Shown here: in pieces, positions 15,239 to 54,764 of the stretch
Numbering within the stretch: position 1 is the stretch's first letter
Layout of the letters: every line of letters starts with the position of its first letter
Assembly: GCA_945643635.1 (NCBI GenBank)
Contig: CALZFC010000059.1
Span: forward strand, 1,526,501-1,590,500
Direction of reading: 5' to 3'
DNA from: Allodiplogaster sudhausi
Lineage: Eukaryota > Nematoda > Chromadorea > Rhabditida > Diplogasteridae
DNA: 64,000 nt
The notes under the pieces: model-generated
What the model was told of the DNA's origin: nothing
Seen by the model: the letters and a program-made list of their open reading frames with translations, nothing else
Database searches by the model: none
Translations under genes and position numbers: made by a program

Positions 15239-16496
15239 GACTTCGGCAGTGCTTGGTCGCGTCTGGGAGCAGGCCTGGACGACGACGGAAACGATGCGTC
15301 GTTGCGTTGTGCTGGCCGGAGATGCCGTCGTTGACCTCCCGGCCCAGGTCAAGATTAAGGCAGTGCCCCGAGTTCAGGGGTACTGCCTTAATCTTACAAA
15401 TTGTACAAACTTGGCCGAAATCAAGGCTGGGCCTGCCGGTGGTCACCAGTGGCGGTTACCAATTTGGCTCTGCATCAAGTACGGTGCATCAAAAGACTGG
15501 GTTGCGGTGATATAGAAGAACGATTGTCGCCCGTTAATATATCACCATAGCATCTGAAAATTCATAAGACAATAAAACGGTTGGCCATGGGATACCTTGA
15601 AAGGTATTACGGTAGAACATTTGGCAAATTGCCAAGACTGATTTATTTCTTGCAGACGACAGGTGCCATCGAGCGAGCGCGTGATTTTGCGGAGCCGGCC
15701 GCGCTCGATCTCAAGGACTATGTAGCTTCTTTTTCACTCCTCTCACTCCCTCTTTCTACTCTCTCTCACTTTCCAACACACTCTCACTCTCTCTCTCTCT
15801 CAGGTGTCCAAAGCGTGCGACTACATGTCTGCGGTGGCCGCGTTCTCCGAAGACGACCGCATTGCCATCGTCGAGCTCTACTTCGGCCTGGCTGTCAGTG
15901 GCGCTACTTTCCCCCTTTTTCTCTCTCTCTACCCAACCATCGCTCTCCCTCCCGCTCTCTTTCTTTCTCTCTCTCTACTCTCTGCTCCTCTCTCTCTCTA
16001 TCTCTGCAGGTCTCTCTGGTCGGCCTCAGCCTCGGGGAGATGTTGTTTGCCTCTCCGGCCACATCATGGCTCCGGTCCATCTTCCTCTCGCCTTCCGTTG
16101 CTCTCCTCCTCGTCGGCCTTCTGCTTGCTCGCTTCTTCTACCATCTCAAGAAGAAAGGTCCTGATTTCGACTGCCTCTAAAACGGAAAGCCATTCTCTGC
16201 TGTCCTCTCTCCATTCAATCTCTCCCTCTCTCTCTCTCCCTCTTCTCTCACTCCTTCTTCTCTCTCTCCCTCTTCTCTCTCTCCTTCTTCTCTCTCTCCC
16301 TCTTCTCTCCCTCTTCCTCTCTCTCACTTTCTCTCTCTCTTCCAGTGATCAAGGACGGCCACGACCGTCGCACTGCCCTTGTGCGAACTTCGTTCCTTCT
16401 CGGAGTCTCCTCTTCTGCCCTCTCCTCCGGAGATCTCCTGGCCCCTACGCCCGCACTCGCTGCCATCGCGCCATTCACTCTGGCCTTTCTCGTCAG

Positions 16497-16536
<40 letters not shown>

Positions 16537-17330
16537 TTCTTTCTCTCTCTCCATTTTCTCTCTTTCTCTCTCTCCTTCTGTCTCTCCCTTTCTTTCTTCT
16601 ATATCAACCCCTCTCATAACGTATCTCCCTCATAATCCATTTGTAGATTGACGGCCAGGCCATCGGTAAGATCAATGGCCGTGCCGCTGTTCTCTAGCTC
16701 ACCGCCATGGCCGGTCTCCTGTCCGTGCTCGGTAGCTGACGATGATACAGATGGGGAAAAGAGGGAAAGAGAAGGAGAGAGAGGGGGAGAGAAGATGAGA
16801 GAGCGAGTCAGACAGAGAGGGTGGGAGAGAGGGAGAGGGAGCGAGAGGGCGAGAGAGTGAGAGCGAGGTAGAGGGAAAGAGAGACAGCTCGCTCTCCTTT
16901 CAGCATGCGTCATTGGCCTCGGCCACAACTCGAGTGCTCTTCTCTTCTCCTCTCTCCACATCGCGTTCCTCTGCGTTCACTTCCAGGTTTTTTCAAATGA
17001 TTCAGTATGACTGTTTGTTGTATTTTTGGATAGGGAAGCAAAATATTTAATCTCCAGTAATTAAAACGTTTTATCCAGATTGTCTGCGCTGCTCTCGAGG
17101 AGAAGAACTCAAATCGTCTACACGGTCATTCTGGTCGTCGCTCAGGTGGCACCATCTTTAAAAAATAATTTTTATGAAATTCCTTCCATTTTCAGCTGAT
17201 GATCTCTACGCTCTTCACGGCGCGTCGCTCTTCTGGCCAACTTCAGCCGAGTTAGGCTCAACTCCCAAACTTCTTGCGCGCCTTCGATTTTATAAATAAA
17301 AAAATAATTTTATTGATGAACGGATCGCAG
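15239..17330 (+). pseudogene. Multi-pass membrane protein gene, probably damaged; weak resemblance to Bax-inhibitor-1 type proteins
   Basis: Exon-like blocks phase together across CT-rich introns: about 15,656-15,721, 15,804-15,893, 16,010-16,158, 16,346-16,493, 16,648-16,732, 16,904-16,985, 17,081-17,145 and 17,197 onwards. They encode several hydrophobic helices (SPSVALLLVGLLLARFFYHL; APTPALAAIAPFTLAFL; SALLFSSLHIAFLCV). The order of a TSFLLGVSS segment, a later LLSVLGS helix and an ALEEKN stretch recalls BI-1/TMBIM6 proteins, but the match is weak. The fifth block has an in-frame TAG (16,696), and a +1 shift near 17,110 would swap a hydrophobic IVYTVILVVAQ for a hydrophilic frame. An upstream block at 15,240-15,347 ends in a good donor but its frame is uncertain. 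Confidence 0.35.
15722..16647 (+). repeat. CT-repeat introns
   Basis: The introns at about 15,722-15,803, 15,894-16,009, 16,159-16,345 and 16,494-16,647 are almost wholly CTCTCT or CTTTCT on the coding strand and end directly in CAG or TAG acceptors. Long Ser/Leu/Pro frames read through them are artefacts. Confidence 0.8.
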
Positions 17331-42864: not shown

Positions 42865-43175
42865 TGTTACGGCGGGGAGAGCGCAGTGGCCCCGCCCCCT
42901 ACGGGGAGAGGGGGCCACTCGGGAAGCTGCCGGGAGTGGGAGAGAAAACACCTCCACAGGGCGGCTGGCAGCTTCCCCCCGCCATGGATCTTCCCCCCTC
43001 TCTCTCTCTATCTAAGTCCAATCTCATGTTGATAAGGATGCGAGTAAAGTAAGCAATAAATATGTCACTAAGAAGTCCAAGAGTAAGAACGTAAAAGGGG
43101 AGATCCGGGGCGACAGAACTACACACATACATTCCCCACGGCCGGCTCACACTCCACCGGAGAGCAGGCTTGACA
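42865..43175 (+). repeat. 5' LTR (311 bp)
   Basis: Begins TGTTACGG and ends TTGACA (TG...CA ends). By eye it is identical over its full length to 54,454-54,764. It contains a GC-rich stem (GTGGCCCCGCCCCCTACGGG) and an AATAAA at about 43,055 that could serve polyadenylation. Confidence 0.95.
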
Positions 43176-43185
43176 TGGAGGTCCC
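43176..43185 (+). promoter_or_regulatory. Primer binding site, tRNA-Gln type
   Basis: TGGAGGTCCC begins at the base after the 5' LTR. Its complement GGGACCTCCA fits the 3' end of a nematode tRNA-Gln. Only the first ten bases match well. Confidence 0.6.
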
Positions 43186-45177
43186 GGGTTGCACGACGAC
43201 AACGGAGACGTCCGCCGTCAGTCGTGCATGATCTTTCAAGCTGAGGTCCGTTTTATCTTTGACATTAAATAAGCCGGAATAACACTTTTTGCCGCACTTG
43301 ACTAACACCCTCCTTTCATTATCAGAAAACAAAAATCCCGAATACCCGGCTCGGAGAACGTTTAATATAATTTTTTTTCCTTCCTTTTCTTTATCGTTAC
43401 TCCGTTTCCATTCTCGTTTTTTTTTAAAGGTATTATTGTCATTAGTCATACCGCGGCATTTCTTGGTTGCGAGGAACCCACGCGCTCACCCCCCTCATGA
43501 AAAGAAAAAAGTGAGAATGAAATGAGAAAAGCAAGATTTATGTATGCACATACTTGCGATCGCGGCATCCAAAAGTAGCGCGTGCGGGCAACTAAGCAAA
43601 AGGGGGGTCAAAAAGAGAATAAAAAGAAGACGAATAATAAGGCATGTCTCTTAATAATGAATTTATTCAACATGCCAAGGCGAGCTCGCACAAGATGATT
43701 TTTTCCACCCGCTCTAGCGTGAAGTGAGGCATAGGGGCAGATAATTAAAATTAGCGCGCGCATATTTAATATCATTTTCTCTCTATTTTATTAGAGCCTT
43801 CTTCCCAAAGAGCCCGTAGGAAAAACCACAAACGCCGCATTCACTGTATAATTCGGGTACCCAGGGTTCCTCACCCCAGCTTCAGAATTTTCGCACCATC
43901 TCACCTGCTACACCACCAGAACTCCATGTGGGTATGAATGTATGTACATATTTATAAATAATATCTTTAAAAGCTGCCAGCCCCCCCTCCCTCTCAACTC
44001 CCGGAGCGCCCGGAACTTAGTATAATTTATTCTCTTTTAATGAATTCCATCTTTCATTCAATCATTGTCTTTTCTGTTTGTTAAATAATCCTATTTCCCG
44101 ATTTTAAGAGAGCAGGAGACACACCATTCTCGCAGTATTTGTCATTTCACGCTGCATAAATCACTAATGTATTCAAAAACTCCAAGCGCGAATTTCTTTT
44201 ATCTAAATCTGTGTTTCACTTACATTTCTTTTATTCTGTCCTCCTCCGCAATTTCTCTCTTAATTCACCAGAAATAGAAAAATCCAATACATTTCTATTA
44301 CACCATTTCTATTCACCGATTTTCTCGCCGCTCCTCACTCTCTCTCTCGTTCGCTCTCTCTCTCTTGCTCTCTCTCTATATCTCTCTATCTTTCTGTGAA
44401 CGCAATCCTATGATCACCCGACTTCTGTTCTCTATTATTCGGCATTCCGACTATAGTCGAACGATGGCGCCGGCTGACGCAAACGCGGCCATCCTCAGAA
44501 CAGCTCAGCTCACAAACACCTCGGCCTGCCGCCTGTTTTCAAGAAGTAGAACGCCAACTGCCGCAGGCGCTCATTTCTTTCTTTCTTTCTCGCCCTACTT
44601 ATTCGTGAACACTCTCTCCTCTCCATCGCGTAACAGAGTCCTACCGCAAACTCACCCAGACACATGTCACATTCCCGAGAAACTAAAGCTGCCGAAAATA
44701 CTCGAGACAGCCGCTCCAAAGACACGCAACCCGTGACCACTAGGCGAGTGAGAGAAAGAAGCAGAGAAAGAAACAGAGAAAGAAGAAAATCACTGGAAGA
44801 CACAGAGAAAAAGACACTTCCGGTGTATGCTGGCCGAGAGATAAGAACAAAAGTTATCTTCAAAAAACAAGATGAGAGAAAAGACAGAGAAGAGAAGAAA
44901 GCACAGAGAACAGAGACAAAACTGATATGCATATACTCGCGTACATATGTACATCAGCAAAAAGGAGAAAAAGACAACCACGGTTTATATAAGATATTGG
45001 TATATACATATACTAATATGTACACACAGAAAGAGACTCGCTGCGCTTTGAATTTTTGTTTTACAACACGCGTCCATCCGCGTCGAGAATAATTATGCCG
45101 TCCGCGTGCACCCGCGTAGACAGCCAAGTTTTTATTACTTGAAGGTTCCACAGCATACAGAGTACGACTCACTGACG
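43186..45177 (+). other. Long retroelement leader
   Basis: About 2 kb separate the primer site from the likely Gag start. It includes a 142-codon Arg/Glu/Lys-rich frame (44,664-45,092) that may be accidental, since the sequence there is AGAGAAAG-rich. The leader may contain packaging signals or splice donors; none is obvious. Confidence 0.5.
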
Positions 45178-48100
45178 ATGGCGCCGGCAAAAAGCACCAC
45201 CAACGCGGTAGTCCAGCAGCAGATTCTTCGATCACTGCGAGCACTGCCGCCAAAATACGACCCGAAGGCCGAGTCAATCAACGAATTCTGCATCCGATTC
45301 AACGACTACATGACGCTGAATGAGCTCAGCGAAGCCGACGCGATCAACATTCTCGCGTGTCTACTGCCGACGGAAATCCGCCGCGTCTACAACAAGATCG
45401 ATAGAGGCATCCTGGGAGGAGGCCAGCTGATCCCGGTGATAGAAGCGCTTATCCAAGCGCTGAAGGAACCGGAGTTCACAACGGTGGCGAGGTCAAAGCT
45501 ATCAACCCTCCGCCAAGGAACAGCTACTGTGGAGGACTTCGCCAGACAGGTGAACCGTCTCATCGATGATGCCTACCCAACTCAACGCACGCGGGAAAAC
45601 GACGAAATGAAGAAAAGCCAACTCGTCAACGGCCTTAGAAACAACATCAAAAAAGGCGTACTACGAGCGAACCCTTCATCCTTCACTGAAGCAATCCAAG
45701 CAGCAAAGTTTGAAGAAGCCATCGCGGAACTAGACGACGACTTGGTACAGCGAATCAACAATCTTCAACTCTCGCACAGGGAGCCGCAAGAGCCTGCCCC
45801 CGAGGTCAACTTTATGAGGCAATTCCAGCGCTCATACCCAGACAATCGTGGCGGACACTATGGCTCTAGCTCCTGGTCAGGCAACTACAATGCCAGACGA
45901 GGATTTCGAAGTGCTCCACCGTTCCGCGGACGAGGCCAATACAGAGGAAGACCAGGTGAATACAATGACAGATCCCGAGATCGAGACAGATACAACAACC
46001 AGTCAGACAGATACCAGCATGACAATCCCCGATCTCGCTCACGATCGCAGCCAAGACAGGACAATTGGCGAGGTGGAAGAGGACGTGGAGGCCGCGGGCC
46101 TCGAGCCGTCCACTTCATAACAATCATGGCAATGCTGATCGGTTTTCTGGCACCATTCACCATCGCAGAACAATTTCACGACTGCGCATCTGCCACAGGC
46201 GGGCTGCTGGTTCGTATGACCACAGAGCAGCCCTGTGAAGCAACCGAAAACGAACGTATACTGGAAACTACCGTCAGTCTCTTCACTCAGAACCGTTCCC
46301 TCTCTGACGCCAGAGCAACCCTTTGCCTTATCCGAGAATTCCAGGTATGCACGACGTCTGCCTTCTTCATCTATAAGGTAGAGTCGAACATGACCAAGAT
46401 CAGAACCGCCACGTACGCTGAATGTGTGAACGCCAGGAGAACATTCCAGTGGAAAAACAAGGCACTCAGACGAATTTCTCAAGATGTGGCAGCCACAGAC
46501 AGGCCCCCAGCACCTTCGAACAAGTTCTGGGGTGAAACATGCATTACCGACGAAGTCTTCTACCTAGAAGACGCCCCGATCACGGTGATTCAAGAGGAAC
46601 AGATCTTGACGCCATTGATGCTGAACACAAAGGATTGCACTGTTCAAGACGGATTCTGCAAAGGAAATAACCACATCATCATTTGGTCTCCAGAAGAACT
46701 CAAAACGGAGCCGTGTAGCCACATACCACTGATTACCACACGAGCACTGGTGGGAAAAACTCGTATCCTGGTCGACACCGCACATATTTCACTGACTTTG
46801 GACCCGAAGAAACAGGAAAAACGTGAATGCTTCAAACACCTGCCTCACCTCACCACAACCGGGGTGATCGTCACTTTCCCCGAACTGCACCCAGAAATAA
46901 ACATTTCCGAGTACTTCGACGCTACCGAAGAGGTGGCAGAGCAAATGCTTCTTCGACCCAGACGCGCAATCAGCGACGACATATTCCACAGAAGTATTCT
47001 GCGCGACCTCGGACTGCCGGCAAGACAGTCACAGCAGCAGACCAGAACATGGACGCAGCCAACAGCGCCACCAGCAAAACCAACAGAGCCAACTACAACT
47101 ACGTGGAAGCCCACGACAACGACAACCGCCGCGCCAGAAACAACAAAGAATCCAATAAAGTCAGAGTCGGAAGTAGCTTCGACAACAACTCAGAAACCGG
47201 CAACAACTACGGCAGCCCCGACAACTACATGGATACCCCCAATCGTCCACAGAACGGACGAAACCACTACAAAGACTCCGACCACAACAGGGAGACCGAT
47301 AACCAGGCCGACTACGTCAGAAGTTCCGTCTACAGCAATAATTACATCGACAACAACCAGGCCGAATACGACAAAAATGCCATCCACAACGACAACTACT
47401 TCGACAACCGCCAAGCCCACCACTACAGAAATACCGTACACAACGACAACTACAATGAAGCCTGTCCCAGCAACCGAGCCTCCCGTGATAACAACAATAA
47501 CGCGTAAACCGACCACATCAACCGAGATGCCAACCACTACAAGCACGCGGGTGACGACAACAGAAACGCCGAATACCACCTCGGCAACGACAACGACAAC
47601 TCAGAAGCCGGGCGCGCCAAATAAATCGTCCCCGACAACCGAATTGCTCTCTCCAACAAAGCAGGCACCGACAACAACACAGGAACCAGTCACGATTCCT
47701 ACACCAACAACGACAGGAAAGACAAGTACGACGACGGAGCCGGATTCCCTCGTGGAAACGACATCGTCAGCAAAACCGGATGAGACCGCTCTCACCCTCA
47801 CCGACAAAAAAGAGGAAATGTCGGAAAACACACCGTTCCCCTATAGAGTACTTCCGCCATTACCACTGACGGCCCCAGCGCCAACGCCTACAGGAATTGT
47901 GAATCCATCACGGCAACAAGCCCAACCGAATCCTGAAAGAGCATTTGTACTCCCTCGAGAAACAACCAGAACCGAACCAATGCCTGCCCTCACCGCACTG
48001 CAGACCCACCATGCATACGATCAGCTGCCAATCAAGCTGAAGGCGCAGATTACAAATGAAACACTCCAAGCAGAAGTTAACTACATGCAACAGACGTACG

Positions 48101-51100
48101 ACCACCAAGAAAACACGCGAAGGAATTACACCCACTCAGGGGTAAACATGAAGGTCAACTTTGCTGCACAGCACATCCAAAGCGATATGCTGAAGAACTA
48201 TCAGCAACTCTCCGCGTCAATCTGCGCAAATGAAAATATGGCAGTACGCACTTTCCGTGCCATCGCATGGATCGACGCTACAGTCGCCATCAGATCACTC
48301 ATGAACCGAAGAGACATCATCGCCCGGTTCGTCGGCGAGGATATTCTGATAATCTCAAAGTGCAGAACAATCGAAGTGAACGAAGTAAAGCGCAGCAAGA
48401 ACGTCAACGGAACCTGCTATGCGCTCACACCAGTCACAACCAGCGATAACAAAACATTTTTCGCCATACCCGGAACCCGCGACGTCATCGAAAGTTCACC
48501 CACCATCTCATGCGAAAAGGTCACAGAAGACATCTGGCCTTTGAATGGAACATACGTGCATGGAGAGGAGGCAAAACCAGTCAACGTTACCCTTCTTCCA
48601 AATTTCTACTCGCATAACAAGCTGACGCTCACGGAAGTAGACATCACTAGTGGCGATATTTTCGACCATGCGAAGGGATCATCCTTTCCGCTGCAACTGG
48701 CCATCACGTATGGCTCCTTCCTGCTGTCAATGAGAACCCAGAGTTCGAGACTCATTCACGGAATCAGTGAATCAGAATTCACGGAACTAACAGGATCGAA
48801 TGTACCGAAGTTCAACATCGATATTCCCAAAATATTCGAACACATCCGAGGATTCTGGGAAAACATAACCGACCACATCGTGACAATACTTATGAAATTG
48901 TCACTCCCACTGGCGCTCGTAATCATCATCATCCTTCTTGCGATCGCCATCAAATTCACAGTCCTGTCCTACATCATGAAACTCTTCCAAAGTGCACCAA
49001 GAGTGAAGGTCAACTTCGTTCGCGGAGGACAACAGGACACAGGTGAGCCTGACGTTGAAATGCAAGAGATAAGAAGATCCACTTGCCCTCCACCATCGGC
49101 ACCTTCGATTCCGGCAAGGAAACGATCAACTACACTCTCATACTCAGTGCCGTACCCAGAAGAAACAGTCTTCACCTACTTGCACGTGAACAATGTGAAT
49201 GCCGTCACAGGTCGGAAACTACCACACATTCCGATCACCGTCTCTGACCGTGCTACAGTAGCACTTCTAGACACTGGCGCAAATGTGTCATATATTCGAG
49301 AATCCTTCGCACGGCAAGCTGGACTCAAAATGAAGCCAACGACTACTTCTTCAAAAACGGCGAACAATTCCAGCATCAAATTCACCGGCGAATGTTCAGC
49401 CCAAATTCGCATAGGAAATAACATTGTGAACCACACGCTGCTGGTCTCTCCCGACAATGATTGTCCCGCGGCAGCACTCGTGGGATTCGACATTGTTCGA
49501 GTTCTCGCGAAACAAGACATTCTGACGACTTTCATGGAAAATGAAGCCATCATCGGCGACTCGAGAATTCCACTTCTCTCTTCACCTGATGCAGTCTACA
49601 AACAGAAATCACAGCAAGTATGTGCACTCAAGACACTCCGAGACTACTGCATTGAACCAAATGAAGAAAAAGCCGTTTTCATCGCACTGCCTGAAAACAG
49701 AATGACACACGACGAAATAGCCATTTACAATATCAGCTGCCACGACGAAATCAAGCACCTCGAGTTTCAACCGTTCCTCTGCCAAAGCCCCCGCGAACTG
49801 ACTCAAGTGATAGTCAAAAACATTAGCGGCCAACCGGTAATGCTGAAACAAGGAGCTCAAATCGCTGCAGCAACGACAATTGAATCCTCCACCGCTGAAT
49901 ACATCCCACCAGAAGCCGATTGGGAAAGCCGTCTACCGCAGGTACAACCGGACGACGACAAAAACCTGACCGAAATCGTCCAAGTCGACTACAAGCATCT
50001 GCAGCCGAAGGAAACAAAGAAACTTCGCGAACTGATTATGAAACACAGAGATGCTTTCCAATTGAATGAAAACCTGGGCCACTACCGAGGCCCCATCAAA
50101 CATCACATCCAACTCAGAAGAGATGCAAGGCTCCCAGCTCCAGTGATTCGACACATCCCTATGGGAAAGCAAGAAGAGGTGGATCGCCAGGTCGAGATGT
50201 TGCTCAGACAAAACGTCATCCGCGAGAGCACATCAACGGTGCTCTCTGCTCCGGTCCTAACCCGAAAAAAGGACTCAACCTGGCGGTTCACGGTGGATTA
50301 CCGCCCGATCAATGCAATCACGGAGCCAGAACCTATTGCCCTGCCAACCACAGACGAACTGTTGCTCGAAACAGCCGGAGCAAAATATTTCACAACGCTT
50401 GATCTCTTCTCGGGGTTCTTTCAAATCGAGCTCAGAGAGGAAGATCGACACCTGACCGCTTTCCGCACTCCATCGGGAATCTACGAATTCAACCGACTCC
50501 CAATGGGACTGTGCGGAGCTCCAGCAACTTTCCAACGGGCAATGCAACTCATCAGAAAGGAGACAGGGAACGTGATCTCCGTCTACCTCGATGACATCCT
50601 CATCGTGTCACCCACGTTCAAGGAGCATATGGAAAAGCTCGAGAAGGCACTGAAGGCCATCGAGAAATTCGGTCTAAAACTGAGCCCGCGCAAATGCAAA
50701 TTCGCATCGCCATCAGTCCAATACTTGGGATTCGTCATCAACGCGAACGGTCTCCAACCAAACCCGGACAAGATCACAGTCATCAAGGAATATCCAGCCC
50801 CGAAGAACCAGAAGGGCGTGCAAGTATTCCTGGGAATGGTCAACTACTTCAGACGTTTCATCCCGCAATACGCCGAAGTGATTGCGCCACTGACGCGCCT
50901 CACTGGAAACGTGCCGTTCAAATGGGAAAAGGAAGAGAACGACGCTTTTGAAATAGCCAAAACACTCATGACAACAGCTCCTGTACTAGCAAACCCAATG
51001 AGGGGTACGCCGTTCATTATTGAAACGGATGCAAGCGGCATCGCAATCGCCGCCGTACTCTTGCAAGAACAGGAAGGCCGTCTCCATCCACTCGCGTTCG

Positions 51101-52887
51101 CCAGCAGAAAACTGAAGGACGCCGAGCGCCGATACGTCGCTCTCGAAACGGAGGCCCTAGCAATCGTTTGGGCAATCAAGGCGTTTCGCCAGTACATCTA
51201 CGGAACACCGACAAGAATCGTCACAGACCACCGACCGTTGGTGTCGCTACTAAAACGAAAAGACCTGGAAGGCCGTCTATTAAAATATCAGATGACAATC
51301 CAGGGCGAAGACATCAAGATCGAGTTTCGCGCGGGACGATTCAATTCAGTCCCCGACGCCCTCTCTCGATACTTGAAAGACGAAATCGCCGAGCCAAGAG
51401 AACGATCGCCAAGGAAACCAACCGAACAGAACGCCAAGCAAGTGGAAGAAGACGCGCTGCACGTCAACGTAATCGAGCTCGACAAAATCAAGAAAGCACA
51501 ACAGAACAGCTCATGGATGAATGAGCTCATCAAACGCATCGGAACGACACCGGATGCACGATTCATCATCGAGAACGACATACTCTACGAAGTCAACGCC
51601 GATACAAAGGACACAGTCATCCTGCTTCCGCGCGAGAGCAACATCATCGCGACCGTCATTGCTCATTTTCATGAGAAGACGTGTGCGCATGCAGGAACAA
51701 GACGCACAGCTGCCGCCATAAAACAACGATTCAAATGGCGCGGAATGGCAGCAGATATCGCGACATACATCCGCACCTGCGAAAGCTGCCAGAAACTCAA
51801 ATCTCTGCCCAGAGACCACGGAATGGAACCACTCGGTTCATTCGACGTCCCGAGAGCGCCGATGGAAAGGGTACACCTCGATATAGCGGGCCCGCTACCA
51901 GAAACAGACCGAGGGTATCAATACATCGCGCTCTTCATCGACGCGTTCTCCAAATTCACAATCGCCGAGCCAATTCCGGACCAAACCTCGAAATCAATTA
52001 TCGAGGTTTTCCTCAAGCGAGTGTGCTACGTCCATGGCACACCTCGCCAACTCATCACAGACAGAGGAACTAATCTCCTCTCTGCCGAGTTCGAGGAGAC
52101 TCTGCAAGCTCTCGGCATCGAACACACGACGTCTACACCGTATAGACATCGAGCAAATGGTCAGGCAGAGCGAGCAATCCGAACCCTGCAAGAAGCAATG
52201 GCTCCCAGAGTGAACAAACGACAGAACGACTGGGATCTGGTGATAGCGAACACCGTCTTCGCTATCAACGCTCTGCAAAACACGACGATCCAGAAGTCAC
52301 CCTTTTTCGTCATGTACGGCCGAGAGCCGATTCTGCCGGAAGACAACGAGCTATGCAAACCAACGACCGGCTTGCAAAAAGATATGAGAAGATTTGAAAA
52401 AGAAATTCGCCAGCGACAAAGCGACTGCTGGAAAGCAGTCAGGAAGCACATTGAGGACGCACAGGAGACGCAGGTCGAACACTACAATCGACGCCACAAC
52501 TCTCACACGCGCCGCATTGACGACGGAGACGAGGTTCTACTGAGAGGAGCCCCACGCGCCAACAAACTGGCAGACAGATCAGCACGTCCCGTCCGTGTCG
52601 TAAGAACGGACGGGAGCAAGGTCTACGTCGAAGTGCGACCGGGACACGAGGTCGCCTGGCACAAAGACAATGTGAGAAGATTCCACCGCCGAGAAGAAGA
52701 AGAAGAAGACGACGAAAACGAGCAGCGACAAGCAGACAAAATCACCATAACCGTGCCCCGAAAGAAGAAGCCGACAAGAGACATCATCATCGACCCGCCG
52801 ACGCCGCAGACGCAGCCGCCGACATACTCGAAACGAGGGAATCGAATGATCAAGAAGACGAGGAACGACGATTTTTTATATTATTAA
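45178..52887 (+). CDS. Gag-Env-Protease-RT-RNaseH-Integrase polyprotein
   Basis: Start chosen at 45,178 (MAPAKSTT) as the likely Gag start; the frame is open from 45,106. It has 2,569 residues. Order: capsid-like Gag 1-230; Arg/Gly-rich nucleic-acid-binding segment without CCHC knuckles to about 310; hydrophobic internal signal 314-333; Cys-containing glycoprotein ectodomain; RPRR at 593-596; Thr/Pro mucin-like stalk about 622-865; second ectodomain with NGT/NKT-type glycosylation sites; membrane anchor 1242-1266; protease LLDTGA (Asp 1365); RT with YLDD at 1803-1806; RNase H ETDAS (Asp 1951); integrase HHCC zinc motif 2163-2204 and DD35E triad Asp 2235, Asp 2295, Glu 2331; GPY/F-like and acidic tail. 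All catalytic residues are present. Whether it is made whole or by splicing is unknown. Confidence 0.93.
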   Translation: MAPAKSTTNAVVQQQILRSLRALPPKYDPKAESINEFCIRFNDYMTLNELSEADAINILACLLPTEIRRVYNKIDRGILGGGQLIPVIEALIQALKEPEFTTVARSKLSTLRQGTATVEDFARQVNRLIDDAYPTQRTRENDEMKKSQLVNGLRNNIKKGVLRANPSSFTEAIQAAKFEEAIAELDDDLVQRINNLQLSHREPQEPAPEVNFMRQFQRSYPDNRGGHYGSSSWSGNYNARRGFRSAPPFRGRGQYRGRPGEYNDRSRDRDRYNNQSDRYQHDNPRSRSRSQPRQDNWRGGRGRGGRGPRAVHFITIMAMLIGFLAPFTIAEQFHDCASATGGLLVRMTTEQPCEATENERILETTVSLFTQNRSLSDARATLCLIREFQVCTTSAFFIYKVESNMTKIRTATYAECVNARRTFQWKNKALRRISQDVAATDRPPAPSNKFWGETCITDEVFYLEDAPITVIQEEQILTPLMLNTKDCTVQDGFCKGNNHIIIWSPEELKTEPCSHIPLITTRALVGKTRILVDTAHISLTLDPKKQEKRECFKHLPHLTTTGVIVTFPELHPEINISEYFDATEEVAEQMLLRPRRAISDDIFHRSILRDLGLPARQSQQQTRTWTQPTAPPAKPTEPTTTTWKPTTTTTAAPETTKNPIKSESEVASTTTQKPATTTAAPTTTWIPPIVHRTDETTTKTPTTTGRPITRPTTSEVPSTAIITSTTTRPNTTKMPSTTTTTSTTAKPTTTEIPYTTTTTMKPVPATEPPVITTITRKPTTSTEMPTTTSTRVTTTETPNTTSATTTTTQKPGAPNKSSPTTELLSPTKQAPTTTQEPVTIPTPTTTGKTSTTTEPDSLVETTSSAKPDETALTLTDKKEEMSENTPFPYRVLPPLPLTAPAPTPTGIVNPSRQQAQPNPERAFVLPRETTRTEPMPALTALQTHHAYDQLPIKLKAQITNETLQAEVNYMQQTYDHQENTRRNYTHSGVNMKVNFAAQHIQSDMLKNYQQLSASICANENMAVRTFRAIAWIDATVAIRSLMNRRDIIARFVGEDILIISKCRTIEVNEVKRSKNVNGTCYALTPVTTSDNKTFFAIPGTRDVIESSPTISCEKVTEDIWPLNGTYVHGEEAKPVNVTLLPNFYSHNKLTLTEVDITSGDIFDHAKGSSFPLQLAITYGSFLLSMRTQSSRLIHGISESEFTELTGSNVPKFNIDIPKIFEHIRGFWENITDHIVTILMKLSLPLALVIIIILLAIAIKFTVLSYIMKLFQSAPRVKVNFVRGGQQDTGEPDVEMQEIRRSTCPPPSAPSIPARKRSTTLSYSVPYPEETVFTYLHVNNVNAVTGRKLPHIPITVSDRATVALLDTGANVSYIRESFARQAGLKMKPTTTSSKTANNSSIKFTGECSAQIRIGNNIVNHTLLVSPDNDCPAAALVGFDIVRVLAKQDILTTFMENEAIIGDSRIPLLSSPDAVYKQKSQQVCALKTLRDYCIEPNEEKAVFIALPENRMTHDEIAIYNISCHDEIKHLEFQPFLCQSPRELTQVIVKNISGQPVMLKQGAQIAAATTIESSTAEYIPPEADWESRLPQVQPDDDKNLTEIVQVDYKHLQPKETKKLRELIMKHRDAFQLNENLGHYRGPIKHHIQLRRDARLPAPVIRHIPMGKQEEVDRQVEMLLRQNVIRESTSTVLSAPVLTRKKDSTWRFTVDYRPINAITEPEPIALPTTDELLLETAGAKYFTTLDLFSGFFQIELREEDRHLTAFRTPSGIYEFNRLPMGLCGAPATFQRAMQLIRKETGNVISVYLDDILIVSPTFKEHMEKLEKALKAIEKFGLKLSPRKCKFASPSVQYLGFVINANGLQPNPDKITVIKEYPAPKNQKGVQVFLGMVNYFRRFIPQYAEVIAPLTRLTGNVPFKWEKEENDAFEIAKTLMTTAPVLANPMRGTPFIIETDASGIAIAAVLLQEQEGRLHPLAFASRKLKDAERRYVALETEALAIVWAIKAFRQYIYGTPTRIVTDHRPLVSLLKRKDLEGRLLKYQMTIQGEDIKIEFRAGRFNSVPDALSRYLKDEIAEPRERSPRKPTEQNAKQVEEDALHVNVIELDKIKKAQQNSSWMNELIKRIGTTPDARFIIENDILYEVNADTKDTVILLPRESNIIATVIAHFHEKTCAHAGTRRTAAAIKQRFKWRGMAADIATYIRTCESCQKLKSLPRDHGMEPLGSFDVPRAPMERVHLDIAGPLPETDRGYQYIALFIDAFSKFTIAEPIPDQTSKSIIEVFLKRVCYVHGTPRQLITDRGTNLLSAEFEETLQALGIEHTTSTPYRHRANGQAERAIRTLQEAMAPRVNKRQNDWDLVIANTVFAINALQNTTIQKSPFFVMYGREPILPEDNELCKPTTGLQKDMRRFEKEIRQRQSDCWKAVRKHIEDAQETQVEHYNRRHNSHTRRIDDGDEVLLRGAPRANKLADRSARPVRVVRTDGSKVYVEVRPGHEVAWHKDNVRRFHRREEEEEDDENEQRQADKITITVPRKKKPTRDIIIDPPTPQTQPPTYSKRGNRMIKKTRNDDFLYY

Positions 52888-53786
52888 ACCACACTAGAAC
52901 AATAAAGTAGAAATATACTAGAAATAGTGGTCCCTCAGGAAAAAATTTTAATTCAAGTAATACGTTTACCGTTGCAAGATAATTTTGAAAATAGTATAAA
53001 ATTAGACTTAATAGATTTTTTTTGATATGTATCAACACATATTCTCTGTCAATCCCCTTTCTTTTTCTTTCCTTATTCGATTCCTTTCCCGGTGGCATAC
53101 TAACAACTCTGCTTCTTTCTTTCTCCCCGATTCAATCGCACAATCTCTGCTTATCCTTTGCTCCCATACTCTTCTCCTCTATCTTTATCCTTCTCTATTC
53201 TCCACTCTCTCCACCCTCTCCACTCCCCACCATCTCCAGCAGTCACCGGCAACGCCAAAGCTCCATCGACATCCTCGCGCCGTATCGCAAAGCCGCCCGC
53301 AGTGATCTGAATTAATCAGACAAGAGGTCATCGTTTCTCGCATCATTCTCCTCTTCTCATACGCACTCTCGCGCTTGTCATACGCGAGCTTACAACAACC
53401 CTCCCGCGGATATCATCACACCCTATCACAATCTGCCATTCTCCTCTCTCCGGATCACACTCTCTCAGCAAGGCTAACAAATGTCTCTCTAATTCGCTTC
53501 TCCCCTTGCCCAGCCCGACTCTCGCTGACGGCACCAACAAAGAAAGCGAACCCAGGCTTATTAATTAGCCTACCCATGCCCTGCATACCAAGAAACGGCG
53601 CAAGATGCAGAGAAAGGAGAGGAGGTTAGAAGCAAGACCCAAGACTCCTCCTCCGGATAGCTGCCAGATCACAGGAGAACCAGTCGCCTTGAGCGGACGC
53701 GTTTACCGTTTTCTTATCTACTCCTTTATCTCCTTCTATCAACAGGCCGTCTAACCTATCCTCCATTCTGCTTCAGATTCCGCAGA
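52888..53786 (+). other. Retroelement region between integrase and 3' ORF
   Basis: No convincing gene; pyrimidine-rich text 53,030-53,250. A CTTCAG acceptor at about 53,768-53,776, just before the downstream ATG, could receive a spliced transcript. Confidence 0.5.
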
Positions 53787-54116
53787 ATGAACATGAATAC
53801 CGAGAACAGGGCCCTCCGAGAGAGGGTCAAGGAACTGGAACGGCAACTCGCCGTGAAGGACGACGCGATCGAATACCGAGAGGAGAGCTCTAATGACATG
53901 TGCTACCGCTTGGCCGCCGTGCGAGAGGGCGAACGAACCTTGGAAGAGCGGACGGTCGAGCTCACAAGCCAAGTGGAAAAGATGCGCCTCGCAGCGATAA
54001 GGAATGAACGCGAGAACAAGCTGCGAGTGGAGGATCTGAAACGCCGCCTGGCGAAAGAGGAAGAGAAAAGGAAGGCCGCACAAAGCCAAGTCCTTCATCT
54101 GAGGAACCCTTCCTAA
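53787..54116 (+). CDS. Retroelement 3' accessory ORF, coiled-coil protein
   Basis: A 109-residue frame with continuous heptad character: RALRERVKELERQLAVKDD near the start, LTSQVEKMRLAAIR in the middle and LRVEDLKRRLAKEEEKRKAA near the end. It is highly charged, with no signal peptide or membrane segment. It occupies the position between pol and the 3' LTR where env or small regulatory ORFs usually lie. Acceptor-like AG dinucleotides just upstream (TTCAG, CGCAG) suggest expression from a spliced mRNA. No known accessory family is recognised. Confidence 0.65.
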   Translation: MNMNTENRALRERVKELERQLAVKDDAIEYREESSNDMCYRLAAVREGERTLEERTVELTSQVEKMRLAAIRNERENKLRVEDLKRRLAKEEEKRKAAQSQVLHLRNPS

Positions 54117-54442
54117 GGAGGTGCCATCATTATCTCCCTCTATTCTCCCTCCAGCCGCTATCATGACTCCCCACCCTCTTTCATAATCACATTCTCTCAC
54201 CCGATTTTTTTTCTTCTCTCGTTTTCAATCTAATCCGCCCACTCTCTCAGTCTCTCCTTTCTTTTTTTTCTTTCTCAAAGTTCTTCGTAATTTTTCTTTC
54301 TCTCTCCTTCCCGGCGCTTCGGAAAGTTTTTTTTGTTGTGCGTTCGTGTGAAAGTAGAAGTAGATACTAGGCCGATTTTTTTTTTGTTTTTTTTCAAATA
54401 TCGCTCTATCTCTAGTAGTAGAATGAGGGACCATTCATATTA

Positions 54443-54453
54443 AGTAGGGGGGA
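54443..54453 (+). promoter_or_regulatory. Polypurine tract
   Basis: AGTAGGGGGGA lies directly before the 3' LTR, the expected plus-strand primer site. Confidence 0.8.
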
Positions 54454-54764
54454 TGTTACGGCGGGGAGAGCGCAGTGGCCCCGCCCCCTACGGGGAGAGG
54501 GGGCCACTCGGGAAGCTGCCGGGAGTGGGAGAGAAAACACCTCCACAGGGCGGCTGGCAGCTTCCCCCCGCCATGGATCTTCCCCCCTCTCTCTCTCTAT
54601 CTAAGTCCAATCTCATGTTGATAAGGATGCGAGTAAAGTAAGCAATAAATATGTCACTAAGAAGTCCAAGAGTAAGAACGTAAAAGGGGAGATCCGGGGC
54701 GACAGAACTACACACATACATTCCCCACGGCCGGCTCACACTCCACCGGAGAGCAGGCTTGACA
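54454..54764 (+). repeat. 3' LTR (311 bp)
   Basis: By eye identical to the 5' LTR, including the reading frames that cross it. Followed by the AATT duplication at 54,765-54,768. Confidence 0.95.

Follow-up and report, generated by a model that had tools for sequence, protein, structure and literature searches.

The window analysed here (the whole 64,000-nucleotide stretch of contig CALZFC010000059.1 from the nematode Allodiplogaster sudhausi) contains a complete long terminal repeat (LTR) element at 42865-54764, in which a region resembling a viral envelope gene (env) lies between gag and pol. The two 311-bp LTRs have TG...CA ends, and because they are identical and bordered by AATT at both outer flanks, the insertion is young. 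A leader of ~2 kb (43176-45177) separates the 5' LTR from the Gag ATG. One stop-to-stop frame on the + strand (45052-52887, 2611 codons) runs without internal stops through Gag, a signal segment, an ectodomain, a mucin-like stalk, an anchor, protease, reverse transcriptase (RT), RNase H and a DD35E integrase, in that order. A preliminary description, made from the sequence alone, had proposed a stop-free frame from Gag through the integrase that included a signal-like segment, an RPRR site, a mucin-like stalk and a membrane anchor. Frame scanning, reading and Pfam confirmed the frame, with its Gag ATG at 45178, and hydropathy and composition showed all four parts to be present. The features are listed below; F1, F2, F4 and F6 are families of related copies, described further on.

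42865..43175, + strand: 5' LTR, 311 bp, TG...CA (identity to the 3' LTR; AATT flanks)
43176..43193, + strand: probable primer-binding site, TGG directly after the LTR (by reading)
45178..46110, + strand: Gag; its Arg/Gly-rich tail has no CCHC zinc finger (Pfam and reading)
46111..46167, + strand: internal signal-like segment at the Gag-Env joint, with Met-Ala at 46126 (hydropathy; cleavage place by eye)
46168..46965, + strand: Env N-terminal ectodomain, ten cysteines, RPRR at 46954-46965 (conserved in F1, F2 and F6)
47029..47810, ends approximate, + strand: mucin-like Ser/Thr/Pro-rich stalk, with 54-bp repeats at 47301-47462 (composition, repeats)
48061..48909, + strand: Env C-terminal ectodomain, apparently of glycoprotein B (gB) or chuvirus type, Pfam match at 48142-48570 (PF24664, profile match to gB)
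48910..48966, + strand: Env transmembrane anchor (mean hydropathy 3.05)
48967..49227, + strand: presumed cytosolic linker from Env to protease, with AP[RK][VL]x[VI]NFVR conserved in F1, F2 and F4 and a strict donor-like site at 49041
49228..49494, + strand: aspartic protease, DTGA (PF13650, E 2.3e-10)
50263..50739, + strand: RT, YLDD (PF00078, E 3.1e-20)
51007..51303, + strand: RNase H (PF17917, E 1.7e-34)
51646..52146, + strand: integrase, zinc domain and DD35E core (PF17921, E 1.5e-14; PF00665, E 1.6e-15)
53787..54116, + strand: coiled-coil-like open reading frame (ORF), 109 aa, between pol and the 3' LTR (ORF reading)
54454..54764, + strand: 3' LTR, 311 bp, with a purine tract just before it (identity to the 5' LTR)

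The pol region was used to classify the element. The DTGA, YLDD and D-35-E motifs were intact by reading, and the order protease-RT-RNase H-integrase between TG...CA LTRs is that of Metaviridae. Comparison of the RT with solved RTs (best 60 of 205 rows, no BEL/Pao reference being compared) placed Ty3 nearest (4.8e-79 and 6.9e-79), followed by a match at 2.9e-51 and then by matches at 8e-38 and weaker. Among solved structures, the integrase matched those of Ty3 (7.9e-24) and foamy virus (3.1e-17). By its pol, compared with solved RTs that left out BEL/Pao references, the element is assigned to the Ty3/gypsy type (Metaviridae). Errantiviruses have Env downstream of the integrase; here Env was found between Gag and protease, and for that reason we did not file the element as an errantivirus. 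The Gag matches in Pfam, Retrotrans_gag PF03732 (E 6.2e-5, 23.6 bits against a cut-off of 24.1) and Ty3_capsid PF19259 (E 0.0035), were both under cut-off. The lack of a zinc finger in the Gag tail and the linkage of that tail to an Env leader call foamy viruses to mind.

We examined the middle region by Pfam and by profile searches of the Protein Data Bank (PDB). Monjiviricetes_fusion (PF24664) matched the window copy (F1, E 2.4e-17), F2 (2.4e-12) and F6 (3e-13), always above the curated cut-off, and the Pfam match to gB was under its cut-off in each of these families (window, E 4.8e-5). A profile of the C-terminal half built from F1, F2 and F6 gave 51 PDB rows at E<=10, 50 of which were herpesvirus gB, including rows labelled ORF8, GP110 and BALF4 that we take to be gB; 12 gB rows had E<=0.001, the best reaching 2.9e-7 over profile positions 44-217 of 346. 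A profile of the whole middle region returned 14 rows, every one gB (best E 0.0029). A single-sequence PDB search with the middle region of the window gave 0 matches, so gB was reached by multi-family profiles only. All 14 Env cysteines of the window were invariant in a four-row alignment of F1, F2 and two F6 sequences. AlphaFold2 models of Env had a mean predicted local distance difference test score of 32 (two rows) or 38 (one row), too poor for fold comparison. The sequence homology expected of a class III ectodomain was found for the C-terminal half only, and by that homology the middle region is supported as an envelope relative of the class III gB or chuvirus type. The preliminary description had called this region envelope-like and had offered a chuvirus-type glycoprotein as a guess; both ideas were borne out by the PF24664 match and the profile matches to gB among solved structures. 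The matches to fusion glycoproteins fell in the C-terminal half; the N-terminal half had no match of its own.

Searches of the same genome gave at least 71 matches to an Env query and at least 82 to a protease-RT query; these copy numbers are lower bounds, because only the best candidates were scored, and some places listed by the Env search are identical (e.g., C10 and C242). We examined 33 places: the window, five F1, two F1b, five F2, one F4 (L013), one F5 (L021) and 18 F6, some of which may be alternative haplotypes of one insertion. The order gag, N-terminal env half (envN), C-terminal env half (envC) and protease was found in all 31 places that had all modules, and was kept across families with env identity as low as 27-32%. 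F6 and F1 shared 0.28 identity in envN, 0.32 in envC and 0.46 in RT. Env was found in all 14 of the F6-type places picked via the protease-RT search. A single open frame through all three junctions was present in 11 of the 33 places, in F1, F2 and F6, by a lenient test that passes L003, L032 and L033 despite a break elsewhere; the others had stops, shifts or deletions.

The remaining two places, L004 and L005, lack the same internal stretch, corresponding to window 48796 to 51540 and including the anchor of Env as well as protease and RT; the joint shows an overlap of 16 nt. They represent either a deletion derivative that spread or two haplotypes of one insertion. Three F6 copies (L030, L031 and L035) have a common deletion between the Env halves that changed the frame, and their Gag-EnvN and EnvC-Pol frames overlap. 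The deleted copies of both kinds may have spread with the help of intact copies, or Env may not be needed in each round. In both F1b copies, L019 and L020, the mucin-like stalk is longer by ~0.6 kb and the frame is broken.

To assess selection, we determined the ratio of nonsynonymous to synonymous substitution rates (dN/dS) over 75 slots (15 loci x 5 regions), from which 8 pieces with stops were dropped and some were absent. Where divergence was informative, env was under purifying selection like gag and pol. Between F2 and F4, dN/dS was 0.03 for envN, 0.03 for gag and 0.13 for protease, with silent sites near saturation; between F2 and F5, it was 0.09 for envC and 0.10 for gag; and between the window and L019, it was 0.11 for envC, 0.12 for protease, 0.11 for RT, 0.05 for gag and 0.30 for envN. 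Many distant pairs, F1-F6 included, were saturated at silent sites. Very recent pairs scattered on few changes, with some values >0.7 and two >1: envC gave 1.17 for window-L003 (5 changes) and 0.71 for window-L006, gag 0.46 for window-L002, and L015-L018 gave 1.49 for RT and 0.80 for protease. For L009-L014, gag gave 0.61. At the joints, residues were conserved while silent sites changed, with proportions of nonsynonymous and synonymous differences of 0.26-0.42 and 0.62-0.84, respectively (7 comparisons; the window-L015 linker pair was left out). The joint motifs PRxVHF[IL]T and AP[RK][VL]x[VI]NFVR were present in F1, F2 and F4. Gene order, homology, recurrence and, where divergence was informative, selection are established.

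We also looked for elements without env and for relatives outside the genome. At six more distant gypsy places in the same genome (L037-L041 and L049), no env match was found in the fetched pieces, whose 3' parts lie outside, so that an env after pol is possible there. In L037, L038 and L040, a Gag with a CCHC finger led directly into protease by reading. In an RT tree of 17 rows 114-191 aa long (13 with env, 4 without), the env-bearing rows fell on one side of a branch with 100/100 support, subject to a long-branch warning. A protein database search yielded one match at E<=0.001 among 7961 candidates scored, a predicted protein (P0005) of the strongylid nematode Cylicocyclus nassatus. Its parts are, in order, a mucin-like stretch, a PF24664 match below the cut-off (E 4.6e-5), an anchor recognised by eye, protease and RNase H; it had no RT match and is perhaps a fused gene model. 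Its end (residues ~1370-1458) consists of cysteine-rich CCHC-like repeats, unlike the integrase end of the window. A protein search aimed at the C-terminal half of Env found no match among 3168 candidates, and none of 54 pattern matches in viral contigs was confirmed as a relative.

We infer that this young nematode Ty3/gypsy-type element, with its putative class III Env between Gag and Pol, is probably expressed by translation of its genomic RNA into one Gag-Env-Pol precursor threaded through the endoplasmic reticulum (ER). Gag would be made in the cytosol, and the internal signal segment would then start translocation; the Env ectodomain would enter the lumen, the anchor would stop transfer, and protease, RT and integrase would again be cytosolic. 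By reading, the Gag tail before the signal segment and the residues after the anchor are basic, flanks that would leave Gag and Pol cytosolic and Env lumenal. Gag and Env would be separated by signal peptidase, Env would be cleaved by furin-type proteases in copies with a site for them, and release of Pol would fall to the protease of the element. Capsids could then form beside Env-holding membranes, giving enveloped particles or cell-to-cell transfer, and Env would have fusion activity. The precursor is supported by a frame that is open across both joints, not only in the window but also in copies of F2 and F6. Further support comes from the homology of Env, its 14 invariant cysteines, the low dN/dS values of env alongside gag and pol, the conserved joint residues and the basic flanks, and from the existence in another family of a single-frame polyprotein with Env (Atlas virus).

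Several observations weigh against such a precursor. The N-terminal half of Env, with its ten cysteines, had no Pfam match at E<=1, and the furin-type site, present in F1 and F2, is missing in F6. A 1:1:1 output of Gag, Env and Pol would be unusual. The joint residues could be conserved merely as the ends of Gag and Env. Env may be dispensable for some rounds of copying, because three F6 copies share the Env deletion and frame change described above. Finally, Met-Ala opens the signal segment in the window, F2 and F6, which fits a separate Env message, and the only strict donor of the window element, at 49041, lies just after the Env anchor.

The last two observations bear on the strongest alternative, which we consider less likely: Gag or Gag-Env-Pol would come from genomic RNA, and Env (or Env-Pol) from a cis-spliced mRNA, or one trans-spliced to the leader SL1, starting at Met 46126 and perhaps spliced out of Pol at 49041. 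SL1 is present in the host, its 22-nt leader having 1821 exact matches (1188 + 633) against 0 for a reversed control. The strict splice-site scan of the window element also gave two acceptor places, and an acceptor-like site ends at 53776, ahead of the 3' ORF. Cer1 of Caenorhabditis elegans makes a spliced mRNA, according to the available portions of its descriptions (PMC3315495, PMC10309623). However, ~1.5 such donors per 11.9 kb are expected by chance by our estimate, and no strict donor or acceptor was found in the scanned F2 and F6 pieces, for which reason we rejected these sites as proof of splicing. The case for a separate start of Env at the shared Met-Ala was likewise weakened, by L013 (F4), which has Val (GTT) in place of Met. 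Intact copies also have no stop at either joint, though stops there would be harmless if the messages were separate. The preliminary description had offered two modes of expression, a membrane-spanning precursor or splicing inside the frame; the sequence evidence leans toward the single precursor, which we prefer over a separate Env message. As a separate observation, many SL1 copies lie at G000:C1:10148768-10204176, close to the end of the contig, often spaced by ~460 bp and arranged in runs that alternate in orientation.

It is improbable that the middle region serves some other function as a membrane protein, for instance in holding Gag and Pol at a membrane or in germ cell fusion, instead of being a particle envelope. 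The unmatched N-terminal half and the Env-deleted copies at three places would agree with such a role, whereas the homology to viral fusion glycoproteins, the furin-type site in F1 and F2 and the invariant cysteines speak for an envelope. That a private insertion or assembly error put env between gag and pol in the window copy, the outcome that the preliminary description had named as fatal to its proposal, can practically be dismissed, since its search for copies of the same order was answered by 31 of 31 places with env identity down to 27-32%, and since the C. nassatus protein joins env, anchor, protease and RNase H.

Other features of the locus were noted. The leader holds two short ORFs (44410-44733 and 44664-45089), and the start ATGGCGCCGGC is present twice, at 44464 and at the Gag ATG. 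The 109-aa coiled-coil-like ORF occupies the usual env location, after pol; a 142-aa counterpart was seen in two F2 copies (e.g., L023 1257-1682) and none in the two F6 copies inspected. The window has two frames of >=250 codons, the polyprotein frame and one at 15726-16619 (+ strand, 297 codons).

The layout resembles that of flaviviruses and hepatitis C-type viruses, whose capsid, envelope, protease and polymerase form a single chain threaded through the ER, an internal signal following the capsid; the analogy is of layout only, the proteins being unrelated. More tentatively than for the precursor itself, we suggest that an old nematode Ty3/gypsy lineage may use a flavivirus-like capsid-envelope-protease-polymerase polyprotein, in which tethering of Gag to the leader of Env would bring the capsid, the fusion protein and the enzymes to one membrane together. 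We know of no other Ortervirales in which an enveloped reverse-transcribing particle is built in this way.

The following comparisons draw on the available portions of the cited sources. Metavirid Env, where present, is encoded downstream of the integrase according to the International Committee on Taxonomy of Viruses (PMC7879559), which makes its position between Gag and protease unusual. Errantiviruses and other env-bearing Metaviridae share the Ty3/gypsy pol and an Env with the element and differ by having Env after the integrase (PMC7879559). Atlas virus, a hookworm endogenous belpaovirus, is likewise an LTR element of a nematode; its LTRs are 100% identical, and its one stop-free polyprotein contains an Env of viral type, but its 2828-residue chain is Gag-Pol-Env, with Env last, and has a class II phlebovirus-like Env and a BEL/Pao pol (PMC9094657). 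The mosquito BEL-Pao element Anakin captured a chuvirus-type glycoprotein too and differs by its Pao pol and host; in Roo, Tas and Cer-7, the glycoprotein is downstream of the polyprotein (PMC7642597). Cer1, a Gypsy/Ty3 element of a nematode, likewise has a single long frame without a gag/pol stop; it is described as a Gag- and Pol-containing polyprotein, and the available text does not mention Env (PMC3315495, PMC10309623). Nematode Mavericks are mobile elements with a putative viral-type fusogen and differ as DNA transposons without RT (PMC10680173). We set aside Troyka, whose ends are CG...CG, and the short protein sORF2 of insect elements, which is mostly encoded upstream of gag. No clear evidence that Gypsy elements had captured such glycoproteins was reported in a 2023 survey of those of arthropod Jingchuvirales (PMC10084718). 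An incomplete literature search of titles and abstract openings showed no env between gag and pol, and an earlier description is possible. Each part of the element belongs to a known kind; it is the order that appears to be new. Capture of env is a route from retrotransposon to retrovirus-like element, and an env placed between gag and pol within a single frame, and kept over great divergence, is a second architecture, in which Env expression without splicing becomes directly testable and by which a Ty3/gypsy lineage would join the holders of chuvirus-type glycoproteins. The place of the fusion protein, in the middle rather than at the end, points to a retrovirus-like element whose particles would be assembled from one precursor threaded through the membrane.
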